Shown here one piece after another: positions 1,365 to 62,690 of a stretch of 64,000 bases of DNA. The translations under genes and the position numbers were made by a program. This DNA is from Rhytidiadelphus loreus (taxonomy: Eukaryota > Streptophyta > Bryopsida > Hypnales > Hylocomiaceae), in contig OX344763.1 in NCBI GenBank assembly GCA_947034895.1, positions 1,118,501 through 1,182,500 on the forward strand. The letters run 5' to 3'. The notes under the pieces were generated by a model, which saw only the letters and a list, made by a program, of their open reading frames with translations, was not told where the DNA came from and did not search any database. Numbering within the stretch: the stretch's first letter is position 1; every line of letters starts with the position of its first letter.

Positions 1365-1367
1365 CTC

Positions 1368-2546: not shown

Positions 2547-2549
2547 CTC

Positions 2550-4800: not shown

Positions 4801-4889
4801 CTAACACAACCAAGTTCTTTAAATTTTTGGATCCAATCTTATCCTAAGGGGTGCCAAACGTCAGTCCATTGTGCCTTCCAAGCAATGGA

Positions 4890-5900: not shown

Positions 5901-6589
5901 TTGCTCATGCCTTTAAAAGGTGGTTTTAATACAAAAATTTAGAATTTCTAACTTCAAACCTCTAACTACTTGCTTCATTCTTTTCCTTTACTATCACTCT
6001 TTCCATTCTTTATCTTCTAAATATCTACTTCAATGGTTCTAAATGGAAGTTTTGGATGGCCATACGTCTTAATCTATCTAATTTATGGTTGGTAGAGGTG
6101 GGATTCTATCCTATTCTTTCTTCTTCTTCTTTAGAAATTGTCATATATTTGTTTTCCATAAATTTGGATACAATTATTGACCATGAGAAGTTACGCTAGA
6201 ACCTTATGCCCTTTTACAAAATGGTTAAGCCCATTTTTTGTTTAATTTTTTATTCCCTTTTTGATGCCTCATTAATGAAATTAAAGCACACACCTTTTTA
6301 TTTTATTTTGGTTGCTTTCCAATACAATATAGATTAGCAGTTAAATACCAAAATGTTCCAGGGTTTTTTCATTCCATTAATAGTGGTTTTGGAATGGTCA
6401 TAAATCAATTAGATGTTGTTCTAGGTTAATAAACCTACTCTAGAAATTAGCAAATCAAATCAAATCAGGCATGGTAGTACATTATACTACTCACTCAACT
6501 CACTAAGGGTATGGCCTTAATTAAAAAATTCTACAACTATGGTAGGTGGTTATTACCATCTACCTCATTATGATCACTTTGAGTCTCTT

Positions 6590-15722: not shown

Positions 15723-15953
15723 TTGGATAAAGCCATTCAAAATTGGTTAACTGATTCCCCATTGTATGGTGTGAATTCTGAGTGGGAAATGAATGATAGT
15801 AGTGAAGATATTTATGATAACAAATTTGGAGATATGCCCATTCAATTGTATGTATCTAAAAATCATTTCCAAACCATTAATCTGGGGTCTGGGAACAAAG
15901 AAAAAAATATACAAATAACTAATAGGCTAAGTTCTTCCGAATTGGCTATTTGA
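15723..15953 (+). pseudogene. Element A fragment upstream of RT, no domain recognised
   Basis: A 76-codon open frame directly upstream of the RT-like frame. Just after its stop, in the same frame, comes text resembling the segment that leads into gypsy RT (a His-x-Ile-Asp-Ile-Glu-Asp motif near 16034). It may be the protease-to-RT linker. No protease active site was found. Confidence 0.4.
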
Positions 15954-15999
15954 GTTGAATTCTTTAAAGAAAATTCTAAGACATTTGTTTGGTCTTATA

Positions 16000-34000: not shown

Positions 34001-37000
34001 TTGCCTCTGTTTCTGCAGACGGAATGGTATGTCGTTTTAAGAAAAAATCAAATTTTAATAGGCTTATCTTCTAATTATGAATATTTTTGATTATAATGTT
34101 TAATTTTCAAAACAATTAAAAATAATATTGATTTAAATATAGATTATATTTTGGGACATCACAACAACAAAGGAACCTGAGTTGGATCCAAATTGGTCAG
34201 ATGAACGAAAATGGGCGGCATATGAACAACAAAAATATATGTGGACACCCTTATATAGATTAGAGTTAAAATTTGGAAGTCGACAAGTGGGACCTTTAAA
34301 AATGTCTTGTGGCTTTGGGGGCACTATCTATTTTTGCAGTACAGAGGTTCATTATTTTGTCTTATTTTCAAACTAAATTATTGTAAAAATCAATCAATGT
34401 ACTTGTGTAAATTTTTATTCACTTTTATATTATGGTTTAGGGTTGTTTGCCTTGGAATTTTAAAATGATGGCCTTCATTTTTTTGTGCAGTTTGGAGAAG
34501 TAGTGGAAGTAGATTTGAATATTCCTACAGGTAGTCCTAATATTTCAAAAAATACCGAGGTTCACGAAGGGCCCGTGAGGGCACTTGTTCAATCCCCCTT
34601 TTTTGATAATGTGTTATTGTCTGTTGGTATATGGACATTTGCCTTGTGGAGGGATAGCATTGAGGTATATATCGTAACTTTGTTTATCTACTTTAAAAAA
34701 ATATTAACTATTTTTTTTTCCAAATAGAGTTTTTATGGTCAATTTCGTTAAAATGGCAGTATTCCGCATGCCATTTTAATGGAATATCTTCTACAAATGG
34801 AGAATAAGTGTGCCACGATAGGGTCATACATGTGCCAATTTTATACCTAGCACATTCAAATCACTCCTAGTTCACGCATTTCTACTCCCCTTGGACAATC
34901 TTTCCATTGTTTTCATTTTTTCAGTGGTTTCATTTTGTGCCATTTTAATGGAATACTGCCATTTTAACGAAATTGACCATTTTTATAATAGTGATCAATC
35001 ATTTTTTGAGCAAAAGCACATAAACACATGAATATAAAACCATATGCACAAAATTTTTATTTACATCTTTGTATAAAATAATTTATAATATTCAAAATAC
35101 TTTAAATATAATTTTTTGACATCATTTTATATTCTCTTCTATTTATTTAGGAAAAGATCATGAATTAAATATAATGTAATTACATTCTAAGGTTAATAGT
35201 GATTGGCTATTAGAACATAAACATTATCTTATTTCTAATTTTTCACTGTAGAAACCAATATATGTTTCAAGATCATGTGATAGTTATCTTACCACTGGAT
35301 GTTGGAGCCCATCTCGACCTGCAGTTATATACATAGGACTCATTGATGGAACTATTGAAATATGGGATTTGCTTGATTGCACTCATCAACCATCCATGAT
35401 AGTACATGCTAGTTCGTGCCAAGTGACTGCTATGGAATTTTGGAAATTAAAAAGTATTCATGTCATACTTTGTATCACTACAATTCTAAATGAAGATTTA
35501 GGAATTAATACGTTTAGTTTTTTTTGTAATATGCTACTTAATTCCATTGGTGATAGATATATTATTTGTTTTTATTGAAAATTTATATTTAAAATATATA
35601 TATATATAAACTTCTTAAGTGACAAAACTTGACTAACATCTTTACCTTAATGTCAATGAAATCTTGGAAGTAAATTTTGTTCTGGTAAAAAAATGAGAAG
35701 AAAAACAATTATTATGTCTTGTACTAATTGAATTAACATAAGTATTATACAATCAATGTTCATAATATTATCTATATCCTACATGCAAAGAAACTTTTAT
35801 ATTGATCAATCAATGTACTTCATAGTAGTACCAAAAATATTTTAATACTTCATACATGATCGAATTATATTTGGGTATAATGTGGTAGCACCCCAATTTC
35901 TTGCCGTTGGTGATATATCGGGTAATTTGCATATCATGGAGATCCCTAGGAGCCTTCGTCGTGCTACTCACAAAGAGGTATTATGTATTATTTAATAATT
36001 GATGTATTGAATGACTTAACAATTTTTCAATCATAAAAATATAAAATGATGTAAGTTTTTAACCCCTTAAAGATGTACTATCATTTGAATTTAGATTGAT
36101 GGGTGTTTTCAAAATTTTGATATTGTTTGTCAAAAGCGTTTGTATATGATTTTCTTTCTGGAAGCACCTCAATGAGATTAATTTGCTATACACTAGTGAA
36201 ATTTGACATAAATTGAATGTATATTAAAGAATTGTGAGGATAGAAATATGTAAAACATTGATTGTGTTGGCTTTGTATTTAATAATAGAAATGAAAAGTG
36301 CAATTTTGTATATTTAAGCAATAAAATTTCTCATAACTTTACCACCATAAAATCATCTAACTTTAATGAAATGCCAACAAATTTCAATAAAAATTATCAA
36401 CATCTTTGTTTTTATACAAAGTTAAAATAGATACAATCATCCAAATTTTGAATATTATATTAAGAAACAGATTTTTAGAAATGATAGGTTTATTTATTCA
36501 TATGTACAATTCAAAATTCAAAATCTAGAATATACACTAGAAGAAGCCCGTGTTTTTTTGAGTGTTTTAGGCATCAAAGTTGATGGATTTTGCTAGACAT
36601 CTTTTATAACAACTTGTGTTTTTATGTCAACAATGACATCTAATGTAATGTCTAGATGTTACATTAAATGTCATTGTTGACATAAAAACACAAGTTGTTA
36701 CAAAGGATGTCTAGCAAAATCCGTCAACTTTGACGTCGAAAAATTAAAAAAAAAACGGACTTCTTCTAGTAACATATTCATACATCATATATTTTCATAT
36801 TGTGCTTTATAACATTTCTACACAAATTCTAAAAATCAAGACTATGTATCTTTAAGGGGTTAACTCAATTTGATTTATAAAATTCACAATTTATATATAT
36901 TTATATGCAATGTTTGGAAGATTTTAATCATATTAAAATATACAAATAATTGATTCCATAGAAGCCTGCTTTCAAAAACTTTATGATGAGACAACAAGCT

Positions 37001-40720: not shown

Positions 40721-41498
40721 TCATTTTTTGTTGTTACCTCACTAACTTGTTGGTTTTAAGTTGTTTGTTCAATTGTACTAATCATAGAGTTGTCCTCCTC
40801 CATATCTTGGCGATAATGCTTAGAGAGGACTTCTAGTTGTTGTTTTTAAGTTGCCTACTTCTAAGTGGGAATTTCGTAAGTGTGAAATCTTTTAGGAATT
40901 GTGTTTTGTACTAATGTGTTTGTATTACATGTTCTTTGTCTAAACTTTATCTACAATTTCACTACTTCTCTTATAGATGGCAAAATTTTGAACTCCCTTG
41001 TGCTAAAAGTGTTTAGATTTTGTGTTAAAATTGTCGTGTACAAACACATTGTGCCAAGATCATATTGAGCCAACATGAGAGAAAGCATGCAATAAGTTAA
41101 CAATGGACCCTGTCATTGGCTAGTAATCACACCACACCAAGGTCCAATAGCTCCTGACCAACGATGGACACCGTGGTCATAGGGAAAACGCCTCGTGACT
41201 TGTGATATGAGTCACAACCACGGTAAAACCCAACAAACAATGATAGCAATGCGAAAAACATCCTATCACCATAAGCACTAACACTGGTGACATCCATAGC
41301 CTAGTAAAGAAATAAAATTCCATAATACTCAGTACACAGGTGTAGAAAGTGGTTTCACAACCACTCCTTTATTCGCCCTCTTCGTCAGTGCTAAAGCCCC
41401 TTTCACACTGGCGAACTCAATGGTCTTCTCCAAAGTACTAATGAAAACCCAGTGGAAAACCCATACTAAGATGTTAGTGGTTTATGTTGCCTGGACAC

Positions 41499-41820
41499 AC
41501 ATTTGGGGCAAACCCAATGGCCCGTTGGGATTTCTTCCAAAGGAAGATTCAAACAATCCATATGCCACCCTGTGGAATAAACATCACACAACACCAAAGT
41601 GGCAGCGCTTTAGGCGCTTCCACACAACACGCATTTTAACCCAGCCAAAATTCGTGACTTGCTGGAATTAATATGTCTATCAATGTGTGGCAAATGACAC
41701 AGCGCACAATTGCGTGTGTGATCCTTCCAGATCTTGTCGTTACGACCCTCCAAGAGTAATACTCCCGGCTTGAGCACCTCGCGCACTTGTAGAATAATAC
41801 ACCTTGTTGTCACATCGAGG
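41499..41820 (-). pseudogene. Element B integrase C-terminal tail and PHD finger
   Basis: PHD fingers bind histone H3 tails. This one sits at the extreme C terminus of the integrase polyprotein. From 41820 to 41640 the integrase tail continues (a GVLLLEGR segment and an NCALCHLPH segment). The finger shows C-V-L-C (from 41633), a CD-V-Y pair whose second ligand Cys is Tyr (TAT at 41579-41577), G-WHMDCL, then W-V-CPKC ending at 41499, i.e. the C4-H-C3 spacing. An in-frame TAA lies at 41612-41610. The motif runs straight on from the integrase tail, so it belongs to the element. A zinc-finger type other than PHD is possible but the WHM.CL and W.CP.C signature argues for PHD. Confidence 0.7.
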
Positions 41821-41823
41821 GTG

Positions 41824-42805
41824 CACTATAAGAAACCGGAGTTTTTTAAAACGTCTCAAAAAACGCGCTATGATGTCCAGCTTGGCGTGGTCCACGTCTG
41901 CGTAGATGTATAAAAAAATCCGTTACAACTAACGGGAAAAAAACGTACAATAGACATGTTAAAACATGTCCGATTTTGGCATGTTTTTTGATGACGTCAA
42001 GAAGAACGTGTGTTTTTCAGCTTCAAAAAACAAACCATGTGGACGACACATCAACGACGTGTCACCTATATTTGGCGGGCAATGCCATGTGTGAAATTTT
42101 TCATCGATCCAGTCAGATCATTTTGTATTATTTGAAAATTTTATTGGTGATTTCTAAGATGTCAAATTAGACGTTTTTTGAAACATCAATTGGTACATAT
42201 TCTATCCATAAGGCAAGATAAATTAAAAAATTAATTTTTTTTGTCAAATTCAACAAAAATTTAAAAAAACCTATCATTTACCTTCAAGTAAATTTTGGAT
42301 GGTAAAATGAAGGAGTTTCTTCATCAAAATTTAGTGAAAATGAAGGATTTCGAGGTTTTACTTATATTCTTTCTCTGCCTATAGAGAGACAAACGATATG
42401 GGATAAGTAAAAAAAGGGATGTAAAATGAATTGCATTTTTTGGGATGTTCTTGTTGACGTCTTCAAAGATGTACATGTCTCACTTGACATCTTTGCTTTC
42501 TACCCGAATTGCATTTTTTACCAGCGATCAATACTCTACTGCTGACCGCACTAACTTTTGCAAGTGCAAAATGTAATTAATGCTGATGTGGACAAACTTG
42601 TTGTAAGTGATGTTTTCTGGGACATCTTCAAAGACGTACACGTCTCATTTGACATCTAGTGTTCTGATGTTTATAGCACCATGTCCGTATAGAGGTCAAA
42701 AAAAATTTGCACGACTACATACGTTAGCTTGAAAACGTAGGACGTCTCAAAAAACATGTGCCGTTTTATGGCTAACGTAACCAAAAATGCAATTTTCTTA
42801 TAGTA
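41824..42805. mobile_element. Non-autonomous CACTA element, 982 bp, inserted in element B integrase tail
   Basis: It begins CACTATAAGAAA and ends TTTCTTATAGTA, flanked by a perfect 3-bp duplication GTG (41821-41823 and 42806-42808). Taking it out with one GTG rejoins the integrase tail in frame (PTT to LDV). The inside is non-coding, with subterminal 'gacgtctcaaaaaa'-type repeats near both ends. Confidence 0.85.
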
Positions 42806-42829
42806 GTGGTAGGTACCGTTTGTTGCAAG

Positions 42830-43614
42830 TAGACATAGTCCCCATGTAGAAAACGTCGCACCTGAGGCCTATAGCCCTCTTCTAGTATCGTGGCATAACG
42901 CAAAGTGTCTCTATCAGCTGCACAATAAAGAGGTTCTCCAAAGCCATTGGCATCACTCTCTTGTATAATTCCGCACGTTGTTCGCATACGCGAGCCCACG
43001 TGTCTGGATCATTCATGTGATCCAATATCTTGTCTGCATCTTGTTTGATTGCCATTGGTAAAACCGGATGACGCCCAAACAATAAGTAATAGGGTAAAAA
43101 AGAAGCAAGAGAGGCTTGCTTACTGAACCGATAGCCCATTGCTATCCATGGAAGTTGTAAGTCCCAATCTCCATGATGCCTTTTCTTCAAGCTATACTTT
43201 CGAAGCCCCCTCTTGACAGTTTGCACCATGCGCTCCACCAATCCATCTGCTTCGGGATGATCTCTTGAAGTAGTGCGGTGATCAATCGTCGCTTGTTCAC
43301 ACAAGGCTTGAAATTTTCCGAGAAACTCACGTTCTTGGTCAGTCAATACCTCAGCTAGAACTCCAAAGCGACTCAAAACACGATCCAAAAATGAATAAGC
43401 AGTTCCTTCACTGAACTTGTCAAGCAATGCCACCAATTCAATCCATTTAGAAAAATGTTTGATCATCACCAACACATACTTGTTATGTTGTGAAGTCACC
43501 GGCAATGGTCCTACAAAGTCCAAACTCCATTGATAGCCCAATCCCATGATTGGCAACGGTTGTAACTGGGGCATCGGGGCATTAAAAGATGCCCGCACTC
43601 TATCGCACATTGTG
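42830..43614 (-). pseudogene. Element B integrase catalytic core and start of tail
   Basis: A DDE-type retroviral-like integrase core. The first Asp is in SLDFVGPLP (near 43540), the second in the LTDQERE stretch (near 43350), and the catalytic Glu in a DHPEADGLVER segment (near 43250), so all three catalytic residues are kept. A long downstream part (W.LQLPW.AMGYR, then LLFGRHPVLP) is typical of gypsy integrases. The frame is open from 43652 to 42882, then shifts, and the tail resumes in another frame (GYRPQVRRF..GDYVYLQQ, about 42890-42810). V2 is inserted just before the core at 43615. Confidence 0.9.
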
Positions 43615-44337
43615 GGGTGATTGCAAGAAATACCGGTCCTATGAAGTGTCACAATTGAAGTGACAGAGTTGGTTTTGGCCGTAACTTTTGGAAATTGAAG
43701 CCAATGGACTTGAAATTTTTATAGAAGATTGCTAACTCAAAAAACATGAGATTTTTTATTTTTCAATTTTTTTCAAAAATCATGTTATAATTAAATATCA
43801 ATTTAGCTAATTTGTCACACTTTGCGGTTTAGTGGGTTTTAGTACTGTGAAGTATCCAAAAAACATGATGTTCACTTGACTTTTTTGTGGCCTACTCCGA
43901 CACTAAATGGGCATATGTCCACCAAAGGGAATTCAAAAAAACACAATTATCTGTCTTCAACATGCATGCAAATAGGGGTCCTTTGTGCATAGCACTCCAA
44001 ACTTTCATGATGGTTTCAACTTCTAGTTTTTGGTGAAATGTAATCACCATCAAGTCTTTATAAATGGCCATTTTTTAGTGTTCTTTTATTCACGATTTTC
44101 TAATTTTTATTAATTTATACTTAATTTTATCTACTTTCTGTGACAAATTGTCATTTTTATAAGTAGTCTGTTTTAGTATTATAAAGTACTCAAAAGTACT
44201 ATTGGCCGTTGATTTTTCAAATCAACGGTTGAGATTGCTCTATTTTGTAATACTCCTAGTACTTCTAGTATTGGGCAGAAAAAACACAGTTTTTGACCAA
44301 ATGTTACCAAAATCGTTCGATCTTTCTTGCAATGACC
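43615..44337 (+). mobile_element. Family V DNA element, copy V2 (723 bp), inserted in element B integrase
   Basis: The left end is GGGTGATTGCAAGAAATACC; the right end, reverse-complemented, is GGTCATTGCAAGAAAGATCG. A perfect 5-bp duplication TTGTG flanks it (43610-43614 and 44338-44342). Removing it restores the integrase ARC..MCDRV reading. The body matches V1 (21763-22486), sharing blocks such as 'acacaattctttgtcttcaa' and 'caacatgcatgcaaataggg'. It is non-coding. Confidence 0.85.
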
Positions 44338-44850
44338 TTGTGCATCTGGCTACCAATTGTTGAACTTGCATTTGCATACCTTGTCAGCAATAGTGAATTT
44401 GCAGCAAACTATGAGTTCTCCGCACTCCAAAGTGCCCCAAGTTCTTGTGTGCAACTGTGCATGCATTATCAACTTCACTCTTTCATGAGGTGCCGGTACC
44501 ACCTTCTTGTTGCCATCTGGCCAAACTCAAAGCAAATGAGCCCCCTCCTAGACGAACCGCTTTGCTCGTTGTAGAATCCGATCTTTCTCCTCAGTTGACA
44601 TGTTGACCGCCAATTCACCATGCTTCAAGTATTTCATCACCTCCATGTCATCAAAAATATCCTTGGCGCCCCTAGACTCTTCACCACCATCCACATCCAT
44701 CATGGCCACAATAGCTTCCTCGGTGTCGTCTTCAGTCATCGCCAATATACTCAAATAAGTGGCAAAATGCTAGCCTGGTAATGAATCTTCTCCCTCCTCT
44801 ACATGCCATCGGGCTCCTGTAGAGTCTACTTAGCTAAGACTTGGATTGCG
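44338..44850 (-). pseudogene. Element B linker and integrase HHCC zinc-binding region; RNase H largely deleted
   Basis: From 44754 an acidic linker (MDVDGGEESRG, then a DDMEVMKYLKHGEL segment) leads into a WPDGNKKVVPAPHERV-like stretch and the integrase zinc-binding region near 44460-44345 (His-x3-His in AHKNLGHFG, then VARC before V2). Only about 100 bases separate the RT end (44853) from this linker. The usual 200-plus-residue connection and RNase H domain is therefore missing, most simply by internal deletion. Stops are TAG or TGA at several former Trp or Gln positions. Confidence 0.75.
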
Positions 44851-44852
44851 GC

Positions 44853-45746
44853 TCAAACCGTTGGCATCCCCCAAAATGCCTGCAATCTACTCATATCCTT
44901 TGGCCTTGGAATAGAAATCATCACCTCCATCTTACTAGCCATCACACCCAATCTTCTAAGATATATCATGTGGTCCAAATACTCCACCCGGTCATAATAA
45001 AACTTACATTTGTTCGGATGTAGTTTTAACCCATGAAGTCTTAGTCTCGCAAAAACCTCCTTCAAGTGAACTCTATGTTGTTTTTGATTCGTACTATAGA
45101 CAATAATCTCATCAATGTAGCATTTTACAAAATCCAAGCCAGAAAATATGCGATCCATAACTCTTTGAAATTCAATAGGTGCATTTTTCAAACCAAATAG
45201 AAGGAACCTCCATTGATAGAGTCGGTCCTTTCCATCTTCATCAATTCCCCAAAACGCTGTTTTTTCCTTATCACCTTTTCGAATACCAAATTGGTGATAT
45301 CCCGACCGGAGATCCAAAGTACTAAATACCTTAGTGTAGCCAATGGCATCAAAGTTCTCCTCTGGTGTTGGCATTGCATAATAGTCTGACTTCGTGAATT
45401 TATTAATTCTACGATAGTCTCTACACATCCTTTTCTCATTCCAATTACCAAAAATGTCCTTCTTGGATGGCTTAACCATTGCCGATGCATACTTACAATC
45501 CGATGGTGCTACTTCCACCAATCCAACCTCCAATAACTCCTTGGTCCAAGCTTAAATCATCTTGCGTTCTACCTCACTATACTTGTACGGCTTGCGATAA
45601 ATTGGTGCATCATCCATCAAGTTAATACGTACCTCTTGTCCCTTCAATACTCCCAAATCTTTGAGAATAAAGGCAAAATAATCAACATACATCCTGAGGA
45701 ACTCTTGCTCCCCTTTCTCCTTTGCTTCACTTTCTAGGCCTACCAA
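44853..45746 (-). pseudogene. Element B reverse transcriptase
   Basis: Gypsy-type RT. Motifs in order: a KPYKYSEVER entry (near 45590), KPSKKD..GNW (near 45450), a CRDYRRINKFT segment (near 45420), FSTLDLRSGYHQ (near 45310), FLLFGLKNAP (near 45190) and the catalytic box at 45119-45108, which reads YIDE. The usual second Asp of YIDD is Glu, expected to impair catalysis. One in-frame TAA (45554-45552) splits two parts of the same frame, and the frame closes at 44853 in the connection domain. Confidence 0.9.
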
Positions 45747-45799
45747 TGGTTTCTAAGTTTCTTTGGTCACCGCCTCCTTCTAATCTTCCCTTGAAGCAG

Positions 45800-46129
45800 T
45801 TTTTTCTACCTTTGGTTGCTATTGCACACCAGCTAAAGTAGAGTCTTCTTGCTCCATTCTAGCCATACCATATTGCTCTTCCACTTGGCTCAAATGCCAT
45901 AGCTCATCAGTTTGACCTTCAATATGGCCCTCAAAGAATAATTTTTCCACGTACTCCTCCAATTTGATTTTTGTGCCTATTCTTCCTAAATAGGCCAACT
46001 CGTTTTTGGAGTTGTGAAAAATGGAGTATCCTTCCATAAATCCCATGGATGAGTTGTGAAGGCCTCTTTGCCCCCAACCATCATGTGTGGACTGCTAGAA
46101 CTTGATGGTTTCATAGCCGCTCGTAGTTC
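45800..46129 (-). pseudogene. Element B linker between methyltransferase and RT
   Basis: Frames at 46219-45986 and 46046-45819 continue the polyprotein without a recognised domain, with a frame change where they overlap near 46000. A Glu-rich DELWHLSQVEEQYG-like part precedes the RT. It probably formed a spacer between two enzymes of one polyprotein. Confidence 0.5.
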
Positions 46130-47290
46130 ATAAAAAACCAAGTGGTTCAATGTTGAAGCTCGACGCTTTTGCTTTGCTACAGCAAGTGATACTATCCAAG
46201 AGAGACAATTTAAATCCATAGCTTGGCCAATAAGATATCGTCTCTAGAATTTTGTGATACCTAAGACATTAGTAATGCCTGTTTAGAACTCCATAGCCCG
46301 TTCCTGCTCATTGGCATTAGGCTCCACCATTTCTTCAGTGTGAGCATCCCACATTAAACCTGGTCTATTATCTTTAAAGGCATAGGACCTTGAAAAACTC
46401 ACCAATGTAGGCAAAGCCCTTCGTGGTTCACCTTTGTGGTTGACAACCACTAACAGAGCTTGGTCATCATGATAAACACACTTGGGTGATCGGTAGAGAT
46501 CCAAAATATCTTTCAAATATACATTGGTTTGTTGAATATGCCCTACTGCTACATGTAACAACTCACGTGGTGTCATATTGATCCACCAAAGCCGCAGTTT
46601 GTGAGCTCGTGAACCCACTACAACCACATCCAATAGAATGAGAATTCCAAAAATTTCACGAATGTAATGGATACTCTCAAGTGTGCGTGTACGTGAAGTA
46701 TTTACCACTAGCACATTTTCAATAATATACCCTGGTGGCGGCGGTTGAAAAGTCTCAATAGAACGTATCACCCGCACCATATCGTAAAATAGTGAAGAAC
46801 GGTTGTCCTTCAAGCCATTCTACTTACCTGCCATAGACATGCCTTGGCATGGCTAGCCCGCAATAATTAAATCCACATGCTCCACTCGTACAATGTCTTC
46901 ATGTGAATCAAAGAAATATCGCTCGGTGGTACAACAAATGCGGTCTTAATAGCATTGGTGCTTAATAAGGATGGAAAAGTTTGGCGCATTCGTTGAGCAT
47001 GATGCTTGGCCACTCATCGTGCCTTGTTGTCGTTGTCCACATAAACATAATGCCTCACTTTTACACCCGCTTACAACACTGCCGCCAATCCATTGCCAAT
47101 CCCACCAAATAACTCCAGAAGTGTAATACCTTTGTCTGGCGGCTTCCAATGGATTGTAGAAGTATCCAGAGGTGGGCCGTTATCATCCGCACCTCCACCT
47201 TCCTCCTCATTTTGTGGCAACAAAGATTGTTGCCACGCTTCTTGGATTGTAGTTTTTGCGGCATGTTATAGCTCGGCGGTACTGTTCCAT
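46130..47290 (-). pseudogene. C5 cytosine DNA methyltransferase domain carried by retrotransposon B
   Basis: C5-DNMTs transfer a methyl group from S-adenosylmethionine to cytosine. Visible conserved motifs: motif I ELFGGIGNGLAAVL (FGGIG at 47109-47095); motif IV with the catalytic Cys, PCQGMS (PCQ at 46852-46844); motif VI ENV (46730-46722); motif VIII GSRAHKLRLWW (about 46616-46580); an LPTLVSFSRSYAF stretch; NEQERAMEF, motif IX-like; and GQAMDLNCLSWI, motif X-like (about 46231-46195). Motif spacing gives a roughly 300-residue catalytic domain. The SRAHRxR and SYAF style resembles DNMT3/DRM-like enzymes more than DNMT1, but this is by eye. Inactive: stops at 47073-47071, 47016-47014, just before PCQ, after the motif and after NEQERAMEF, plus a frameshift between 47014 and 46852. 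It lies between protease and RT. Confidence 0.85.
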
Positions 47291-47469
47291 GCTAATTCCA
47301 CCCCAAGTTGATATAATTCTTCGCCCCCAGCTTCCAAAGTCTGAATGTCATCCGCTTTTACGATTGAAGCGATCATAGAAGGATTTTCAAAATCCTCCTC
47401 AAACCAGAATGGATCGTTTGCTACAAGCCCCAAAAAACAATAGAGAACAACCAAATTTTTTGTGAGAAT
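47291..47469 (-). pseudogene. N-terminal extension before the methyltransferase motif I
   Basis: An acidic stretch (FWFEEDFENPSM, then LEAGGEELYQLGVELAW) in the frame ending at 47266 leads into the methyltransferase through a Glu/Gly-rich linker near 47200. No targeting domain (PWWP, UBA, chromo) was seen. Confidence 0.45.
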
Positions 47470-47916
47470 TCATATAAAACGAGCTGACAGTTGAGCTTTG
47501 CATCTATCCCCTGCTTGCCATTCCGGTCTATATGACGCTATCTCCTCCCAGAAGTCCAAGGTGAAATCCATAGGGTATAAAACCATAGCGCCTACCAAAA
47601 CATCATAAGATTTGGCTTTCGTGACTATAGCTTTCACCTTCATGAAGCTAGCATCCTCAACATCATTATAGCGTAGTTGTAGTGTCAACTTGCTCCGTGT
47701 GATGCCATTGGCTTGCTCCGTCCCTTCCATGAAAGTACTAATCATCCATGGACATGTTTCCAACTTGTCCTTGGTCAAATCCAAGCCTTCAATGGCTGAA
47801 TCACCTAGCATCAAGGGTTGTGCATCAGAATCCAATAGTACTCGTCGAGGCACAAAAACCTTCCTTTTGGGCCCAACTAATTGGAAAATGCCTTGGGAAT
47901 TGTCAAGTACCACCAC
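47470..47916 (-). pseudogene. Element B retropepsin-like aspartic protease
   Basis: The protease would cut the polyprotein. The active-site loop reads LLDSDAQPLMLG (DSDA at 47832-47821) where the family has D-S/T-G-A; the Gly is Asp here. An AIEGL flap-like stretch follows, then a KAKSYDVLVGAMVLYP segment matching the end of retropepsins in gypsy elements. The 148-codon frame is open. It sits upstream of the methyltransferase, as expected if PR follows Gag. Confidence 0.75.
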
Positions 47917-48599
47917 TCATAGAGTGATGGATGATTGCTCTATTGCCGAATGTGCTGGCATAGTCTTCAACCGAGCAGCTGTTGATAAAAGCCCCTCCGA
48001 CTCGGTCCAATCACCATCATTCGCCGCTTGTGGCTCAAGCGTAGTTTCTATGGCACTAACCAATATTGAGGTGCCTTCTTCACACATGATAGTTGCCAAT
48101 TAGAACACTGTAGCATCGCTGAACTGCGCATGTGCAATCATGGATGCTGAAAACAACAAAGCATGACAAATGGTGGTCGCTACCTCAAAAAGTGTGCCCG
48201 TATCTAGGCCACTAGTCTTCGTAACTTGAGCGGCTTGGCGATTGCTGAAATTTTGAATTGATAGAACCATGGATGAAGTGGGCACCACATCCTCCAATGT
48301 GAATGACTCTAGCAACCTAGCTTATCAGTTGGCTTCACCTCGTTGTGGGTCCAGCCTTGAACTCGCCTTTTATGGTGCATCATGCACCACGATTTTACTC
48401 CGTGTTGCAGCAAAAGCATCCCTTGGCATGCCGTTGGCATCCGCCATACCACATAATATGTGATCATTTTTTTTTGCATAAAAGTACGTTGTTGTCCTTT
48501 GTGAAGAAGATCCCTTGGCCTCCATGGTAGCACTCATTACTGCCATCTTGGCCTCCAACTCTGTAAATCAGGCCTTCCACGATTTCTTCTCTCCTCCTA
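47917..48599 (-). pseudogene. Element B Gag-protease linker, several stops
   Basis: Open pieces on the minus strand (48558-48370, 48315-48100, 48099-47917) continue between the zinc knuckle and protease. They contain a second Cys/His cluster just after the knuckle (CSGCNVKGHG...C, near 48700-48660) and Ser/Thr/Ala-rich spacers. No enzyme motif was seen. Confidence 0.45.
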
Positions 48600-49165
48600 T
48601 AGACTTGGTCTCTTTAGAGGCACTTCCCTTGGCATCTTTGGCTCCTTTAGGCTTGAGTTTTGGATGCAACTTCTAGCATCCTCTCCATGGCCCTTGACAT
48701 TGCAACCAGAGCAGAATCCACCAATCTTGGCAGTTTATTTCTTTGGTGTCTTCTTGCAATCTCGTTGATGATAACCAATCCCACCACAATTAAAACAAAT
48801 AATATCTGCATCCTCCACATTGGCTGAAATACTAGCCTTAGTGGATTCAGTCTTCTCGGGTTGTTTTTCCTCCTTTCGCAAGAACCTCATGGCCGCTTTT
48901 TCCTCCAAGAGATTAATCTCAATTCCTTCAAAGGTCTCAAAAACATATCTCAAGGTAGGTGGGACACCCAACCTCAAGGCTTCACCTCAAACAAGAGTTT
49001 TGAGCTCTTTATCTAAGATGTTGTACCAGTGTTGAACAACTTGCTGCTCAATCACTTCGTGAGTGGCGGAAATCAATCGCCTCAGTCTCGAATGTGCCTC
49101 TTGCAACGACTCATCACTTCCACATGCAAACGCGCGAAGTGATTTCATTTTATCGACCCTTTGTC
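48600..49165 (-). pseudogene. Element B Gag, C-terminal part with zinc knuckle
   Basis: The frame resumes after U2 with a KMKSLRAFA..SDESLQEAHSRLRRL segment, the C-terminal capsid region of plant gypsy Gag, then a VVQHWYNILDKEL segment. The zinc knuckle at 48797-48756 reads C-FN-C-GGIG-Y-H-QRD-C. A histidine at the Y position would give the canonical C-x2-C-x4-H-x4-C, so a CAT-to-TAT change probably broke it. One TAG splits the frame near 48980. The 5' part of Gag is at 53434-52835. Confidence 0.8.
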
Positions 49166-49260
49166 CTATATATGATTTAAATAGATTTAAATATTTGTAG
49201 CATTATAAAGAAAATGATGTCATTTGAGGTGGCTTAAAGGTGACGTCTTCTCTCTCCGAC

Positions 49261-49268
49261 TATATAGA
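49261..49268 (+). promoter_or_regulatory. TATA-like box of element U2
   Basis: TATATAGA lies 76 bases before the ATG at 49337. In U1 a TATTTAAAAG occupies the same place, 77 bases before the equivalent codon. Conserved position in both copies is the only support. Confidence 0.4.
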
Positions 49269-49336
49269 GAAGGATTTACTTGAAAGCTTCATCTCATTTG
49301 ATATCCTTCTTTTTTGTGTTTTATTTAGATTATACT

Positions 49337-49795
49337 ATGTCGAACTGGAGGGTTTTTTCTGAGTTTCAAGATGAAGAATCTCAATCAGAGCGTGAGTTTG
49401 AATTTTTTTTATTGCAATTGTCGGATTAGACACAATTGCCATTAGGTCTTTCATTGCTATATGGACAACCAGAAGATGAAGCTGGGCCATCTCGACCACT
49501 GAAACAACCTCGCATGAAGAAACGATGGCACGATAACTTTCAACGTGACGCTCGAGCATTGATTATTTAATTGCAGATTGGATGTGTTGAACCTGGCAGT
49601 TGTAAAGTGACATTTGAAGAATGTTTTGAAGGCTTAAACAACAAGCAGTACTATTGCATGGTGAGGCCTATTGAAAGGAATCGTAGTCATCAACGATGGT
49701 TGAAAGGGCGAATTAATTCTTTAACTAAAACAGATAGTGTCGGTTACGTTGCTGCTACCGACAAATGCATCTTCAAATTCTTGCAAATAGAGTGA
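49337..49795 (+). pseudogene. Unrecognised conserved frame of element U, copy 2 (152 residues, two stops)
   Basis: Starts ATG TCG AAC TGG (M-S-N-W) and runs 153 codons to TGA (49793-49795). In-frame stops: TAG at codon 31 (49427-49429), also at codon 31 in copy U1, and TAA at 49568-49570, where U1 has a sense codon. The C-terminal third is best conserved: VGC-type start, FE.CFEGLN, QYYCMV.PI, HQRWLKG, YVAAT. It begins with an acidic Ser/Glu-rich section. There is no signal peptide, membrane segment or catalytic motif I can name. Confidence 0.6.
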
Positions 49796-50661
49796 CATTT
49801 CGATTGGAGCTCTATTTTTTTAACTCTATTAGATATATGTTGCATTTTAATTTTTCATTTCATATTTGAAGTAATTTATTACAATAAATTTGTATTTGTG
49901 AAGTAGTTTGAGGAAAATATTCAAATAGTTTATTTTCTAGGTGAACTTGAAGTGAATTTCCTTTAAAGTTAAAGATAAAGAAATAGTTGTGGGACCAAAT
50001 AAATGCTCAATTATTCATGTTGTAGTTTTGGGAGTGAGTTAGAGGCTGACTCCACTTGTTTGTGTGGTTAGAGTGAAGATAAAATGGAGGAAAATTGAAC
50101 ACTATTCATCTTCTCTCCCGTTGTGAGTTTAGGGAGAACCCGAATGTTTGGAGAGCCATTGTGTTGTGAGTTTGAAGAAGTTTGAAATGAAATTTGGAGA
50201 AGTTGTGTATCATGGTGTGCAATTTCTAAATTGTTCTCACTTGCTTAATTTGGAGTTATGAATCAAAAGTTGTGCTAGTTTGAGTGGAGATAGGTTTGTT
50301 GCCTTTGAAATTAAAAGGCAAAGATTTCGACTGGCCATAAAAGACAGACAAATTCTTGATTTGAAATGATATTTGAAAGAAGTGTAAGAAATTGTATTAG
50401 CTTTTTATAAAAATATCATTCATTATGTTTGGGATTTGTATGAGTGAGTTGTGAGTGTGGAAGTGAAGGAGGGTTTGCTGCCTTTCTTTTCTCAAGGCCA
50501 AACACTACAAGAAAAACAGTGTATAAATGACTGCAAAGACTGACTGCATAGGAGTCATTGTGGACAAAAATGACTGCACTGTGATTTTGGCCCTTGGAGT
50601 CATAGTGGACTAGTCATTTTTATAAAAAACTGCCATAGTATTATTACCATCCATTGTGAGC

Positions 50662-50776
50662 TTGGATGGGGTTTTGGATGGGATTTTGGATGAGGTTTTG
50701 GATGGGATTTTGGATGGGGTTTTGGATGGGGTTTTGGATGGGATTTTGGATGGGGTTTTGGATGGGATTTTGGATG
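50662..50776. repeat. 12-bp minisatellite, about 9-10 units
   Basis: Units alternate GGATGGGGTTTT and GGATGGGATTTT. On the minus strand this gives an artificial Pro-Lys-Ser-His-Pro-Lys-Pro-His repeat, which I do not regard as a protein. Confidence 0.85.
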
Positions 50777-51139
50777 AAACTTCCAAAGTGGTAAAGAAAA
50801 AAGAAGTTTAACCCCTAAGCGCCCCAACGAAGGACTTCCGTCTCTCCAACATGAAAGTTTGTTGGGTTTGACTATCATAAGCTTTTGAAGGGTACGAACA
50901 AATCGTTTGTCCTTTTCCCTATCAATGAAGGGTTATTTGTACTTTCAATTGATACGGTTAGTTTTTTTGGATCTTTTTTTGAGTAATAGTATGATTGACA
51001 TTAGTTGTGAAAGGTTTGGATTCTGATAAATATGAACTAGGTGCTCAGGGGTTAAGGAAATGACTCCTATGTTGCTATGTAGCCAATCATTCTGAAGTCA
51101 TCCGATAGTCACAAATGACCCCTTTTTTTAATCATTTTC

Positions 51140-51440
51140 TGAAATCTAAGATTATATTTTGAAATCTAAAAAATTTGAATATTTTTCTTCTAAAATCTAG
51201 GTTTGTATTCTAAAATCTAGGAAATGTGAATATTATTTTTTGAAATCTAGGATTATATTCTGAAATCTAGGAAATGTGAATATTTTTCTTCTAAAATCTA
51301 GGAAATGTGAATATTATTTTTTGAAATCTGGGATTATATTCTGAAATCTAGGAAATGTGAATATTTTTCTTCTAAAATCTAGAATTGTATTTTAAAATCT
51401 AGGAAATGTGAATATTATTTTCTAATATCTAAAAGATTTG
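51140..51440. repeat. Tandem array of a 35-50-bp unit
   Basis: The words 'ttctgaaatctaggaaatgt', 'gaatatttttcttctaaaat' and 'gaatattattttttgaaatc' recur six or more times with variable spacing. They lie inside the CACTA element at 50503-52520. Confidence 0.75.
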
Positions 51441-52071
51441 AAGATTATTTTCAAGTTGTGGTGAAATGTGCAAAATGAGTACACCATATACCGAACACCA
51501 TACACCATACACAAATACATGATTCATATATCATACACCATATACAAATACATGATACACAATACACTATATTTTGCATATGTGTCAAATGGATTTCAAG
51601 CCATTTAGTGTGTGAATACAAGGAGTTCAAATAACAAGCATTTTATATAAGTGGGGTGGTAGGAGGCAAGACAAACCATGTGGGATTTGTAAAATGTTGA
51701 TGCAATAGTAGAGTAGTGATGTGGAAGTCATTATGTAGTTGTGTTAAAGTAAATCACAATCAAAATAGTAGAGTAGTGACACGGAAGTCATTATGTAGTC
51801 ACCTTAGAGTAAATTGTAGGTTTAACAATGTAAGTTGTGAACAAAAACCAATGGATGCAACATAGACATTGTGAAAGTTATCAACCTAATTCCATAAAAA
51901 TTAGAACCAAAAATTGTTTTTTTATCTTTTAGAGGTGCTAAATGTCATCTAAATTTTAATTTTTGGTCTTTGCATTGTCAATCTAACTTTATTTTTTTAG
52001 TTTGTTTTGATAAAAGCATTAGTAAATAGAGAATTTTTTTTAAAAAAAAAAGTCTCCAAGAATGCATCATT

Positions 52072-52290
52072 TTAATCCCTACAAGAGCAAGGCCTTTTTT
52101 CTACTAAAGAAACATTGAAAACTGTCAATTCTGTAGCAAAGAGTAAAAAAGAATTTAAAATGTTTTTCTTTGACATCTAATCGTAGGATCTTACACCCAA
52201 CTAGTATTTAGAAGTGTGGAAAAAATTTCAGAATTTTTGACCGCATAGATAGCAAGATATTTGCATTTAAAGTGGAAAAAAAAAGTTTTT
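52072..52290 (-). repeat. Family R fragment R5
   Basis: Starts TTAATCCCTACAAGAGCAAG and continues with text matching the reverse complement of the end of R1 ('catctaatcgtaggatctta', 'gtggaaaaaatttcagaatt'). It is truncated and lies near one end of the CACTA element at 50503-52520, so it was probably carried along or inserted there. Confidence 0.6.
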
Positions 52291-52834
52291 CAGCACATTG
52301 CGGGACTAGATAAAGACAGCACGTTCTGGATGTAAAAATGTGGATGAAGACTCCTTGCCACTAAATCGTCATCCTGTAGTCGCGAATGTGACTCTGAATT
52401 GACTCTAACGATGGCAACTCCAAACCCTTAGTGCAAATAGGGAACACGAGTCATATTCAAGTCGTTCCGAACAAGTAGTCATTCTTCTATGGTTACATTT
52501 ACCCCCATTTCCTTGTAGTGGAAACTTTGGACGGTCATAGAAGTTGGATAGAGTTTTAGAATTGCTTGAAATTTAGAGAAGAAGTAGAAGTTTATATTTA
52601 GAAATACTATAGGATAGGACAACAAGTAGCAGTTTGAAGATTTAAAGATTTAAAGACTCGAAGATTTAAAGATTTAAAGATTTAAAGACTCGAAGATTTA
52701 AAGATTTAAAGATTCTACAAGTAACAAATTCATTTGTTTATATCATATTACAACTTTTTTCATTCCCAAGCCATTTTTGGTCATAGCTAGAATACTCGTG
52801 ATTCCCCACGGCAAACGCTCTCAACACGATACCG

Positions 52835-53434
52835 CTGCAGCTATAAAAAAAATTGAGCTATGGGATTGAAGGGGGGTGGATTTGGCACTGGCACTAGGCC
52901 CGTAGTCACGGTAGCCTCTTGGCCTCCTACGCTCACGCCCCCTTCTTCTTGTTTTCCTTTGTTGACAAGCACTATGGTCGTGGATCCCCCTCCCCAAACA
53001 TCAGCATAGTTTAGGGCATAGTAATCAGATTGCCAAGCTACAATCTCAGTAAAATGAGCAAGTTCAAATTCCCCATAGTCTGCCAAAGGGGCCCCTTCAA
53101 GACACCCGAATAATGCCCTCCACACCATATATGGGTTGAAACTAGTATTTTAGGACTTTTGGAGTTCATACCAAATGGTGAACTCCCTACGGAAGTCATC
53201 CACCTCCATATTGCCATTGGCACCAGAAAATTTCCGAACTCCTCGATCAACACCTCCATATGGTGTAGTCATCTCGTCCCATTCAAATATAGATTCGCTA
53301 TGAGCAAGTGTCACTTCGTGGTCAACTGTGATGACGGGTAGCTCTCCTCCCTCGTCACATTCAATATCTCCCACCCAATCTACTTGCTCGTTGATAAAAC
53401 TTGGAATAAAATCACTTCGGATCATTCTACCCAA
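52835..53434 (-). pseudogene. Element B Gag, N-terminal part
   Basis: The 53434-53150 frame has an acidic start and a VRKFSGANGNMEVDDFRREF segment, the hallmark opening of gypsy Gag capsid (RF.G....V..W...). It continues as WRALFGCLEGAPLADYGEF and WQSDYYALNY, then a Pro-rich NPPPFNPIAQFFL end. The frame changes near 53140, and a TAG at the end of this part precedes the U2 insertion. It joins the 49165-48600 part. Confidence 0.75.
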
Positions 53435-54950
53435 GAAAGGCTTCTAACTACAAGGGCGCACTTATACAACAACACTAGTGTCTGATGACTCAAAAACGGT
53501 GTCCCTAGCAAATGGTGTCGCGCTCCTGGTATAACCCGGCCTCCCAAGCGAATCCAGCTTTTACATATAAAACAAAGTTTATATGTAAAGCTGCCAAGCC
53601 TCGTGTGTCCCTTCCACAGCTTCACAATAAATTGTGGGTAGCACCTTTATGTCAAGGAAACCAAGTGTTAAAGAATCCCAAATACTATATGCTCTCTCAA
53701 GCCACCAACCTTGTTCCCACTGCCACGTGGTGTGAAACAAGTAATCCCCAGCTCGAAACTTAGTGAAGATCAATGAGAATGTTGGCAATTGAATTGTACC
53801 CTTGAAGACGTGTCTTACCACTTCTCGACGTTGACCCTCGTTCTTCAACACCACTACCACTTGTAGGATGACGAAATCAACTACCTCCACACGCCCCCTT
53901 GTTCAACTCAACGGTGCTCCAATCACGGGTAACTCCGCTTGTAAGTCCCGAATGATGCGTCCCCCACGTTGTTGAGTCCAAAAGTTGATGGCCTTTGGAT
54001 CTAAAACTTTATACCTAGTTGCCTAAATTATTGGACTTCAAGTCAATCAAGAGCCAACGGTGAGAGTACAAATGGTAGAGTTGCTGCTTGGGGCTGATGT
54101 CTTAGAGGAGATTCACTGGATGACCCTACGTGAAGAGTTTGGAAGGATTCAAGAACCCCATGGAGGTCATTTATAGTCAAGTGAATTTGTACTTCTTCTT
54201 CTTTCGTACTTCCAATTGGTATCAGTCTAAAAGGCTTAGGAATACCTGGCTTTGCCTTTGTCCATGTCGATACCATATGGTCCCAACTACCATTGCAAAT
54301 TCCACCAAGTAAAACCCACAAAATATCAACAATATGTTGTAGTCAAGCAAGTAATCAAACTTAGGGAATGAACCCTAAATTTTCATATATAAACCGGTGA
54401 CTAGCACATACCGCCAAGTCACCCTACATAAGCTCTAGCTAATAATTGTTAGGCTAACTCCATCCAACTACTATGAAACTAGGAGGAAATCTGAAAATCT
54501 ATCATCTAATTACGGTTGAGATATTTGCAACCCACCATGGCAATAGTAGCCTCAACCTCATGCAAAAACCATGCATATATGAAGTATTGCAATATCGTGT
54601 CACGGTCGTCATCCCAACACTCCAACGTAACAAATAGTGTCAACTCTATACATAAGTGATGTGCCATCATGCCAAGCTAACCTACATCGGCGCACTGTGC
54701 TTGTGCCAAGTCTACCTGCCATATCTCCCAGAACTCAGACTCAAAGTATTGTAGTCTACGTGCTGGCAATCGCTCTAAAATAAATTTGAGCAGCGCTGCA
54801 ATAAAATCTGCCTTTTGCAACCACTCTTCATATCCTGACAACATCTGTCGCTCTGGTGGTCTCACATCTTTGGATTGGGTAGCCGCCTGTGCTCCAGTAG
54901 TAACCATAAGTAGGCAATGCTTGGGTCTCCTAATCCTAAACACTCCCTAA
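53435..54950 (-). pseudogene. Element B 5' coding region, unrecognised
   Basis: Several consecutive minus-strand frames (54943-54677, 54321-54043, 53890-53579, 53625-53422) look like a decayed continuous coding region upstream of Gag. The first includes SGYEEWLQKADFIAALLKFILERLPARRLQYFE. The 54321-54043 piece has FRLIPIG..KEEEVQIHLT. I see no known domain. It may be a Gag N-terminal extension or a separate ORF. Confidence 0.4.
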
Positions 54951-57353: not shown

Positions 57354-58567
57354 CACTAGTAGAAAAATTTGCGACCAAAACAACTAAAAACTATTATTTA
57401 CTCATGGTGTTTCAATCCCCTTATAATGGTCAAAATTACACTAAAATTTGTTGATTCAATCAATTTTTAAAAATTGACACTAGTAGAAAATCTGAAATTT
57501 CTGTCATTTTGGACACGTTGTTTTGGACAGAATTTAACTGAAATTTGTTGTTTTGGACAGATTTCAGTTAGATTTTGTCCAAAACAACGCGTCCAAAATG
57601 ACAGAAATTTCAGATTTTCTACTAGTGTGATTTTTTTTGCCATTGTCCAAAATTTCAAGGCAACCATAAATTAGCTTGTGGTCTACTGAATAGATTTGAA
57701 CCTTGGACGTTGCACTTGAGAGCCCATGGCTTCTTGCAATTTGGGGATTTTACAACTCGATCAACAGACTTCATAGTTCTTTTAGGCATAGTAAAACAAC
57801 TTTGAACCAACAAAAGTTGTAATATTATTCAAACTTTCACCTTCAAAAATTCATTTCAGATTTTGAGCCTCCAATTAAAAGTTATAAACAAAATTTAGAA
57901 AGTATATTTGAAAATGTCAAAGAAAATGTCCCATGCAATCCCTCTCTCAATTTGTCCACAACTTTTGATTGGGGCTCAAAATCTTAGAGGGCTTTTGGAG
58001 GTGAAAATTTACTTACTTTATCAATTTTTGTCAGTTCAAAGTATTTTATAAACTATTTTTTAACTATGACTAAATGAACTTTGAAGTCTGCTAAGTTTGT
58101 AAAAAGACCAAATTGTGAAAGATCAAGTTTAAAAAATTGTTTCCTTAGTTCATAGAATTTCAACTATGGTGTTTTAAAATAAAATGTTACAAGAATTGCA
58201 TTCAATAAATATTGCATTGAGAAGGATCTACCAACAAGTGAAAATGGTTTGAAATCATGCCTCAAGACTTTAAGGGTTAAAGTTATTTGGCATCAATGTG
58301 CTAACCTTACCCTATTGCTAGGATACAAGAACATTCTATAATATTATGAATGTGCTAAATAGAGTTTGAAGATTCCAAAAGACTCTAATAAGATTTCACA
58401 TTCCCTAAAATTCTATTGATTAGGTCATTGCACTATTCGAATCAATAGAAATCTAGCAACCATTCTATTGGAGTATTGGCCTCTACCAAAATTAAGTGAA
58501 AATAGTCATTGTAGTGCTTGAAACAACAAATTATTAATTGTTGTTTTTGTATGATTTTCTACTAGTG
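57354..58567. mobile_element. Non-autonomous CACTA element, 1214 bp, related to the one at 1368-2546
   Basis: It begins CACTAGTAGAAAAA and ends TTTTCTACTAGTG. Flanks ATC and ACC match at two of three bases. The 57690-58110 part has the same B-box-like block and foldback arms as 1640-2110 ('ctccaattaaaagttataaa' against 'ctccaatcaaaagttatgaa'). A smaller element is nested at 57478-57627. No transposase is present. Confidence 0.75.
57478..57627. mobile_element. 150-bp palindromic CACTA MITE, nested
   Basis: It begins CACTAGTAGAAAATCTGAAA and ends with its reverse complement; the element is a nearly perfect palindrome around 57550. A perfect 3-bp duplication TGA flanks it (57475-57477 and 57628-57630). 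The palindrome makes both strands read almost the same peptide, which is why matching open frames appear on both strands. Confidence 0.9.
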
Positions 58568-61379: not shown

Positions 61380-62690
61380 GTGGGTATTGAAATGCTCACA
61401 CTTACCTACCATTATTGAGATTTGTCTATTGTGATAATCACTATTGATTGAGTAACTATATGATATTAATGTTGATGCTTACCTTCCATTGTACATAGAT
61501 GTTTGTTTAAGATGATGATCACCCTCCACTTGCTATAGGATGTTGATGTCAATTTGCTTACCATTGTAGATATTTATTTAGTATGATTATCACCCTTGGT
61601 TGTAGAATAGTGACGTTAATCTATCGTTGTAGATATTTTCGTAATATCATGGTTATTTTTAACAGTTGTATGTCGTTGATGTTTTCCTACCGTTGTTCGT
61701 ACTTGGCTAACGTCATGATCACTTTTAACGACTATATACCGTTGATGTTTTCCTACCATTGTTCGTACTTGGCTAATGTCATGATCACTTTTAACAGTTG
61801 TATGCCGTTGATGTTTTCCTACTGTTGTTCATGCTTGGCTAACATCATGATGACTATTAACGGTAGGGTGTTGATGTTTGTCTACCATTGTACATACATG
61901 CCTAACATGATGGTGACCTTTAATGATTCAATGTTGTTGATGTTTTAATTTCCTACTATTGAAGATATTTGCCTAAAATGATGAACACCCTTGATTGGGT
62001 GTAAGATATTGATATTTGTTTATTGCAAAATTGTGATGATCATTATTGATTATGTGACTATATGGTATTGATGTTGATGCTTACCTTCCATTGTAGATGT
62101 TTGTCTAAGATTATGATCACCCTTCACTTGTTGTAGGATATTGATGTTTGCTTACCATTCTAAATATTTCTTTAGTGTGGTGGTCACCTTTAGTTGTAGA
62201 ATGTTTATTTTAACCTACTATTGTGGATATTTTCCTAACATGATGGTCACCTAGCCTTTCATAATTGCATGCCATTGATGTTGATGTTTTCCTACCATTG
62301 TTCATATTTGGCTAACATCTTGGTCACCTTTAATCATAAGATGTTGATGCTTGCCTACTATCACAAAGATTTGCCTGATTTCATGATCACCCTTAACTGT
62401 AGAATGTTGATGCATGCCCACTATTGAAGATATTTGCCTAATATGATAATCACCTTTAACTAACTAAAAAATGTTGATATTGAAGTTTGCCTAATATGAT
62501 GGCCACCTTTTAATTGTAGAATTTTGATATTTGTTTACCATTGTATAAATTTGTTTAACATGATGGTCACACTTATTTGTGAGACTTTGATGTTTGCCTC
62601 AAGGTTTGCCTATTATTGTAGATAATTGTCTATTGTGGTAGTCACCCTTAATTGATTGTATGATGTTGTGAGCATTTTATCTCCACCCTT
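61380..62690 (+). repeat. Degenerate minisatellite, about 60-66-bp period, about 20 units
   Basis: Units read like 'gttgatgttttcctaccatt' + 'gttcgtacttggctaa' + 'catgatcacttttaacg'. In the clearest part the starts fall at 61675, 61741 and 61807, an exact 66-bp spacing; elsewhere the unit length drifts. Because 66 is divisible by three, an open frame (61583-61948) with a 22-residue repeat arises. I regard that as a by-product rather than a gene. Confidence 0.8.

Follow-up and report, generated by a model that had tools for sequence, protein, structure and literature searches.

The minus strand of a 64,000-nucleotide stretch of the Rhytidiadelphus loreus genome (contig OX344763.1, positions 1,118,501 to 1,182,500; hereafter, the window) carries a decayed copy of a Ty3/Gypsy retrotransposon encoding Gag, an aspartic protease (PR), a DNMT3-type DNA methyltransferase (DNMT), a reverse transcriptase (RT), an integrase (IN) and a PHD finger. 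The family to which it belongs is real and has a wider reach than the earlier accounts that we found. We favour, with a probability of roughly 0.6, the reading that in this family a first open reading frame (ORF1) encodes Gag, PR and DNMT, ends at a probably leaky UAG and is followed in frame by ORF2 for RT, RNase H (RH), IN and PHD, the packaged DNMT marking the element's complementary DNA (cDNA) and the PHD finger steering its insertion. This reading builds on the layout, the catalytic residues, a DNMT3-like fold and the codon context at the ORF boundary, and from these it predicts methylation, histone reading and readthrough.

All parts occur together in L001, a 9285-bp public contig (GC 0.524) that came from the sole genome-contig scan. 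Its ORF1 encodes Gag-PR-DNMT and continues over the contig ends (127-nt overlap); ORF2 encodes RT-RH-IN-PHD, begins right after the ORF1 stop in the same frame and ends in a PHD finger detected at E 4.3e-10 (PF00628). From base 3 to 6635 the contig has one internal stop. DNMT and PHD are also found together in the relatives P0253, P0254, P0255 and P0262, which bears out an initial annotation, made from the letters of the window, that had seen both in one element. The window copy, with at least three inserts and coding pieces in different frames, could by itself suggest a chance juxtaposition of unrelated DNMT, Gypsy and PHD fragments joined by nested insertions, as the initial annotation had foreseen. 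We reject this explanation and give it practically no weight, since L001 holds all the parts in two adjacent in-frame ORFs and P0255 has RH, DNMT, IN and PHD in one chain; moreover, the matches of PR-DNMT and IN-PHD chains to the window are collinear.

The window was analysed by stop-to-stop frames, Pfam profiles and tblastn with relative proteins, which recovered every part named at the outset, in the order given and on the minus strand. The element had been placed at 41400-54950; coding matches to relatives confirm 53293-41499, whereas the outer ends at 41400 and 54950 were not established because a dedicated search of the window for long terminal repeats (LTRs) and the usual primer-binding site found neither. 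Rfam and tRNA scans likewise gave no matches. The N-terminal part of Gag (52841..53443, limits set by eye from open frames) is matched by Gag of L001 (53293-53042, E 8.7e-5) and by P0260 (53245-53024, E 2e-8). Gag matches end at 53024 and resume at 49232, across foreign sequence with at least one insert and approximate limits of 49190..52840. The C-terminal part, with a CCHC zinc knuckle, lies at 48735..49232 (P0251, 49223-48837, E 5e-21; zf-CCHC_4, PF14392, E 0.011, below cut-off). The PR region (47470..47916; PF13650, E 0.072, below cut-off), with an active site that reads DSD where relatives have DSG, falls within a match to the PR-DNMT protein P0258 that backs the whole PR-DNMT stretch (48297-46888, E 3e-155). 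DNMT motifs I to X follow at 46163..47131 (P0225, 47730-46888 and 46906-46109, 57 and 63% identity), then a linker to the end of ORF1 (45822..46162; P0091 and P0057 match 45980-45822). The ORF1 stop, located by frames and codon context, stands in the readthrough context TAG CAA CCA (UAG CAR YYA) at 45813..45821.

Downstream of this stop, RT occupies 44853..45752 (RVT_1, 1.5e-28, 44853-45551; L001 ORF2, 45725-44865, E 1e-97). RNase H is missing: in tblastn with L001 ORF2 the flanks join at 44865/44883 (junction 44865..44883) and residues 320-485 remain unmatched. The order thus fits Ty3/Gypsy (PR, RT, IN) but without RNase H, whereas L001 has PR, RT, RH and IN. A pre-integrase stretch with the H2C2 zinc-binding domain (44338..44883; P0116, 44868-44339) is separated from the IN core (42903..43613; rve, 6.6e-12, 42882-43718; P0116, 82% identity) by a nested 0.7-kb insert (43615..44331) with terminal TTGCAAGAAA / TTTCTTGCAA. 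The IN C-terminal domain is divided into a first part (42805..42936; P0117 and P0128, 68-70% identity) and the rest (41634..41825; P0117, 41822-41499, E 1e-37; P0128, 41822-41496) by a second nested insert (41826..42804) with CACTATAAGAAA-like ends, which we take to resemble a CACTA-type element and across which relatives are continuous. The PHD finger closes the element at 41499..41633 (PF00628, 41466-41609, E 6.9e-8, 32.8 bits versus a cut-off of 24). With inserts at about 49.2-52.85 kb, 43615-44331 and 41826-42804, stops, frameshifts, no RNase H and a lost zinc ligand, the window copy is dead, a fossil, and its stops downstream of the boundary UAG represent decay. The repeat inside the integrase has a second copy in the window, at 21763-22480, also with TTGCAAGAAA-like ends and 83% alike over 720 columns.

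The initial annotation had placed the DNMT between PR and RT rather than at an end. This has to be revised: in L001 and in the nine full-length ORF1 proteins that carry Gag-PR-DNMT as one ORF (P0233-P0238, P0241, P0245 and P0249), the DNMT is the last domain before the stop that precedes RT. The nine proteins end 87-146 residues past the DNMT. The DNMT may be released by the element's own protease, as then suggested. The boundary stop reads CAA TAG CAA CCA in the window (stop 45821-45819) and AAG TAG CAA TCA in L001, so that UAG-CAR-YYA, with the next ORF in frame, occurs in two of two DNAs; five proteins of the window clade (P0049, P0057, P0091, P0101 and P0102) end at ...IQ. CAR YYA after UAG is essential for readthrough in TMV (PMC2754532). 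CARYYA follows one of 101 TAGs in L001 and one of 166 in the window element (53300-41400), the boundary stop in both cases. The background rate of CARYYA is 0.0015 over all positions or 8/2210 over codon pairs in L001, and 0.0018 in the window element, giving a joint chance of about 3-6 in a million for both stops, for a match that was noticed afterwards. Given this context after the DNMT, it is probable that the UAG is leaky, that the DNMT travels with Gag and that RT-IN-PHD needs readthrough. The stop could instead be an ordinary terminator, with ORF2 expressed by re-initiation, internal entry or splicing, or the UAG context could be coincidental, as might be argued from a match seen in hindsight in two DNAs and from the window's whole minus strand, where four of 1123 TAGs share it. 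We regard this as improbable, given that the frame is kept across the stop in both DNAs, that no other TAG of either element has the context and that rice gypsy elements offer candidate cases of readthrough (PMC2754532).

The methyltransferase is of the DNMT3 type by profile and fold, with activity on DNA predicted. Of the profile searches proposed in the initial annotation, those for RVT_1, rve and PHD exceed their cut-offs in the window; DNA_methylase (46283-46819) scores 16.3 bits, short of its cut-off of 22, in the window copy, which is broken by stops and by a frameshift near 46.9 kb, but passes in relatives with more of the domain (P0029, 51.1 bits; P0004, 44.9; P0002, 23.6). The later-starting relatives P0049 and P0057 do not pass. 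A 178-aa open piece of the window DNMT (46283-46819) retrieved 103 relatives (50-78% identity; 100 from JGI, 3 from ENA) at E <=0.01 among 203 candidates, and a longer query retrieved 40 among 3545, including the named species Calypogeia fissa (P0242, P0252), Marchantia polymorpha (P0251), Sphagnum fallax (P0260) and Sphagnum magellanicum (P0262); these bryophyte proteins are gene models, several of them broken. Across relatives, the catalytic Cys of the PC motif is kept in 45 of 45, the Glu of ENV in 79 of 81 and the first Gly of cofactor motif I in 40 of 42 chains. Plant DRM enzymes are circularly permuted; the relatives have motifs I, IV, VI, VIII and X in linear order, without a DRM-type rearrangement. 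No DRM appeared among the 50 rows listed by one comparison or in a second, which does not exclude DRM, and the chain 4onj, titled 'DNA methyltransferase' and presumably a DRM, was matched at E 0.0011. A PDB search with the single window DNMT piece gave only unrelated matches (E 0.26 or worse).

We rejected the idea that the DNMT match derives from a bacterial or phage Dcm: besides L001, the scans of genome and viral sequence turned up no more than short Dcm-like matches (L002-L012, 32-58%, in Streptomyces, Bosea and viral contigs). The NCBIfam model dcm stayed below its own cut-off, and viral contigs scanned with the window-clade DNMT and with IN-PHD gave no relatives. L001 is itself filed under the Synechococcales bin CADCWO010000201.1, and protein P0231, another family piece, is filed as a 'DNA cytosine methyltransferase' of Candidatus Obscuribacterales. 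Both are pieces of a eukaryotic element under bacterial records, and the methylase annotations there are therefore probably contamination. A soil alga such as Klebsormidium is a possible host for L001, offered as a guess.

The PHD finger had been described as continuous with the integrase tail and as carrying a C4HC3 signature. Continuity holds in relatives such as P0117 and P0128 but not in the window copy, where about 980 bp (41826-42804) split the IN C-terminal domain. As for the signature, the profile match is clear, but an in-frame stop and a Tyr at the fourth Cys mean that the window copy has no full C4HC3. Searches with the integrase piece gave 233 matches at E <=1e-30 among 1059 candidates; precomputed Pfam annotation assigns both rve and PHD to 14 of the best 120 of these, one of them P0122 of Calypogeia fissa, and the Marchantia polymorpha proteins P0207, P0213 and P0220 are among the matches listed, without PHD in that annotation. 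Of 22 chains that extend far enough to show it, 19 have the PHD after IN; of the three that lack it (P0132, P0139 and P0213), we read P0132 and P0139 as resembling a PHD region in another frame. In sequence the finger comes closest to the solved chains of CHD4, PHF12, BHC80 (PHF21A) and KDM5A, and in fold (Foldseek, from a model with pLDDT 73) to those of UHRF1, PHF1, DPF, BAZ2, ATXR5 and BHC80, including UHRF1 and BAZ2A complexes with unmodified H3. No chromodomain was matched in L001 ORF2, P0116, P0117, P0122 or P0125 at E 0.01.

To describe the architecture of the family, 265 chains (263 retrieved proteins and the two L001 ORFs) were typed with profiles derived from L001. Most of the relatives reached are fragments: 112 chains had DNMT only, 98 IN only, 24 PR-DNMT, 16 IN-PHD, 6 RH-IN and 2 DNMT-IN-PHD, with one chain each of PR-DNMT-RH-IN, PR-DNMT-IN-PHD, PR-DNMT-RT-IN, RH-DNMT-IN-PHD, RH-DNMT-IN, RT-RH-DNMT and RT-RH-IN-PHD. 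Single-domain chains are commonest because the searches restrict length and many copies are decayed. PR lies upstream of the DNMT in 22 of 25 chains long enough to tell, and the other three (P0255, P0257 and P0261) have RNase H upstream. Two layouts thus exist in the family. One is Gag-PR-DNMT, stop, RT-RH-IN-PHD; the other, RH-DNMT-IN-PHD, has its DNMT flanked by RNase H and integrase. A tree of 29 hand-picked family rows and one partial outgroup, which flags the meeting of long branches (P0253, P0255) and the length of the outgroup, joins the second-layout DNMTs (P0253, P0254, P0255, P0257 and P0261) in one clade (support 100/99). In an IN tree of 36 rows, drawn like the first from the 265 chains, the three second-layout members with a full integrase also form one clade, with a support of 99 by a quick method without bootstrap. 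Rows common to both trees keep similar company (the window clade, Marchantia with S. fallax, the L001 clade and the second layout), the exception being P0262 with its poor placement among the integrases; this agreement fits joint descent of DNMT and integrase. Two side observations concern individual chains. P0253 continues for about 350 residues past the PHD finger of the RH-DNMT-IN-PHD layout (residues ~907-1262), where Pfam finds nothing and a DPTAGRGN...APWP pattern recalls adenine methyltransferases, as an impression only. The DNMT match P0102 and the integrase match P0124 share the same longest contig value, 39631, a hint but no proof that they come from one metagenome contig.

These features can be joined into a mechanism. 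From the arrangement of the ORFs, most ribosomes would stop after the DNMT, and the methyltransferase would be made at the Gag level and enter the particle; readthrough would yield a smaller amount of RT-RH-IN-PHD. By extension from the activity of dinoflagellate retrotransposon DNMTs, the packaged enzyme may methylate freshly made cDNA before or during integration, with CG as the probable site, and the methylated copy would arrive marked like host DNA. By analogy with chromodomain integrases, the integrase PHD may bind the H3 tail, in all likelihood when K4 is unmethylated, and steer insertion to quiet chromatin, where the methylated copy would be tolerated. It is conceivable, as a tentative extension that we would not yet bet on, that this streptophyte lineage builds its own epigenetic niche in this way: a DNMT supplied at Gag dose by a leaky stop would mark the cDNA, an integrase that reads histone tails would insert it into H3K4-unmethylated chromatin, and each new copy would share the silence of its site from the moment it arrives.

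Several points weigh against the proposal. Gag-level dosing of the DNMT is not general in the family, since the second layout has it in the IN-PHD chain, and the boundary stop is known from two DNAs only. Each Arg of the motif VIII RxR is kept in 88 of 108 relatives, and 28 of 42 chains retain the final Gly of motif I, numbers that are lowered in part because many chains are decayed; a complete C4HC3 pattern occurs in 8 of 21 PHD chains, several of which are truncated. The same fold listing also contains UHRF1-H3K4me3, Ehd3-H3K4me1 and DPF3-H3K14ac complexes, so that H3K4me0 reading by the element's PHD is a lead only, from sequence and model. The PHD finger could even have no part in choosing sites and instead serve the integrase tail as a structural zinc module or bind another protein, as many PHD fingers bind non-histone partners and the interdomain model is of low confidence (pTM 0.43). 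We consider this rather unlikely, as most of the solved structures nearest to the finger read histone tails and it sits where chromoviruses carry their chromodomain. The domain of the charophyte Gypsy-Dnmt3 gave no methylation in yeast, a result that its authors judged inconclusive because human DNMT3B failed too (PMC5890265). The same source lists RNA methylation, cDNA protection and slowed transposition as options and reports that the charophyte element copies are methylated in the genome (PMC5890265), which would also suit a DNMT that acts as self-restraint or as a host-directed tool, silencing integrated copies of the element itself or DNA of the host's defences, or acting on RNA rather than on particle cDNA. 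With the DNMT fused to Gag-PR in L001 and nine full-length ORF1 proteins, the enzyme would be carried into the particle, which makes such a role unlikely in our view; we retain cDNA marking as the preferred function.

The closest precedent is KnitGypsy-Dnmt3 of the charophyte Klebsormidium nitens (de Mendoza 2018), an LTR Gypsy element in a streptophyte that, like the window family, has a DNMT3-type methyltransferase in its coding region (PMC5890265). Compared by description only, it has the DNMT in the Pol ORF and DIRS-like repeats (PMC5890265), whereas in the window family the DNMT ends the Gag-PR ORF before a leaky-type stop and a PHD finger ends the integrase. A DNMT inside the Pol chain occurs here only in the second layout (P0255, P0257 and P0261), not in L001 or the nine full-length ORF1 proteins. 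The word 'PHD' is absent from the main text of PMC5890265, and no named Klebsormidium sequence was among the relatives retrieved; the L001 clade may be kin of KnitGypsy-Dnmt3. SymbioDIRS-Dnmt3 and SymbioLINE-Dnmt of Symbiodinium are also retrotransposons with a captured cytosine methyltransferase, and SymbioDIRS-Dnmt3 enzymes methylate CG in yeast, but these elements are of the DIRS and LINE classes and represent independent acquisitions (PMC5890265). DNMT3 in retrotransposons of streptophytes and dinoflagellates is mentioned again, citing the 2018 work, in a 2025 paper (PMC12344493).

As for the reader module, chromoviruses, which are also Ty3/Gypsy, have one at the C-terminal end of the integrase, but as a chromodomain rather than a PHD finger. 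Kapitonov and Jurka reportedly described PHD-bearing CR1-like retrotransposons in 2003, which differ in being non-LTR elements with the PHD not on an integrase. De Mendoza and colleagues are said to have described, in 2019, arthropod retrotransposons with a methyl-CpG-binding domain, again a captured epigenetic reader, but one that reads DNA methylation, with no writer named and in other hosts. We know of no DNMT or PHD in RIRE2-type rice gypsy elements. These resemble the window family, by description only, in their candidate stop readthrough (PMC2754532). In the open literature that we consulted, as distinct from subscription papers and from figure 4c and the supplements of PMC5890265, we met neither a Gypsy integrase bearing a PHD nor a DNMT followed by a leaky stop, nor any report of elements of this type from bryophytes. 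The view that no element with this domain order had been described stands within that scope, outside which lies figure 4c, where the domains of the charophyte element are drawn.

A 2019 opinion held methylase transposons not to be present in land plants such as tracheophytes (PMC6338049); the family described here extends them to liverworts and peat mosses (Calypogeia, Marchantia and Sphagnum). Why a transposon should carry the enzyme of its own silencing has been a question since 2018, and this family gives the question a structure: the writer is joined to Gag and PR, the integrase bears what is likely a histone reader, and the stop between the two, which is probably leaky, would set their ratio. 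Marchantia, if it has working copies, would be a tractable host for measuring cDNA methylation, insertion sites and readthrough.

Elsewhere in the window, a second, unrelated-looking Gypsy element lies on the plus strand at 15909-20641 (RT 16116-16580, integrase at about 19.5-20.6 kb), with some 29-35% identity to the DNMT-PHD family. Long inverted repeats at 36553-36754 (101 nt, no loop) and 57469-57636 (80 nt, 8-nt loop) are possible hairpin or MITE-like elements, and a diverged tandem repeat array occupies 61383-62673, with copies 60-88% alike and one family at 66 nt spacing.

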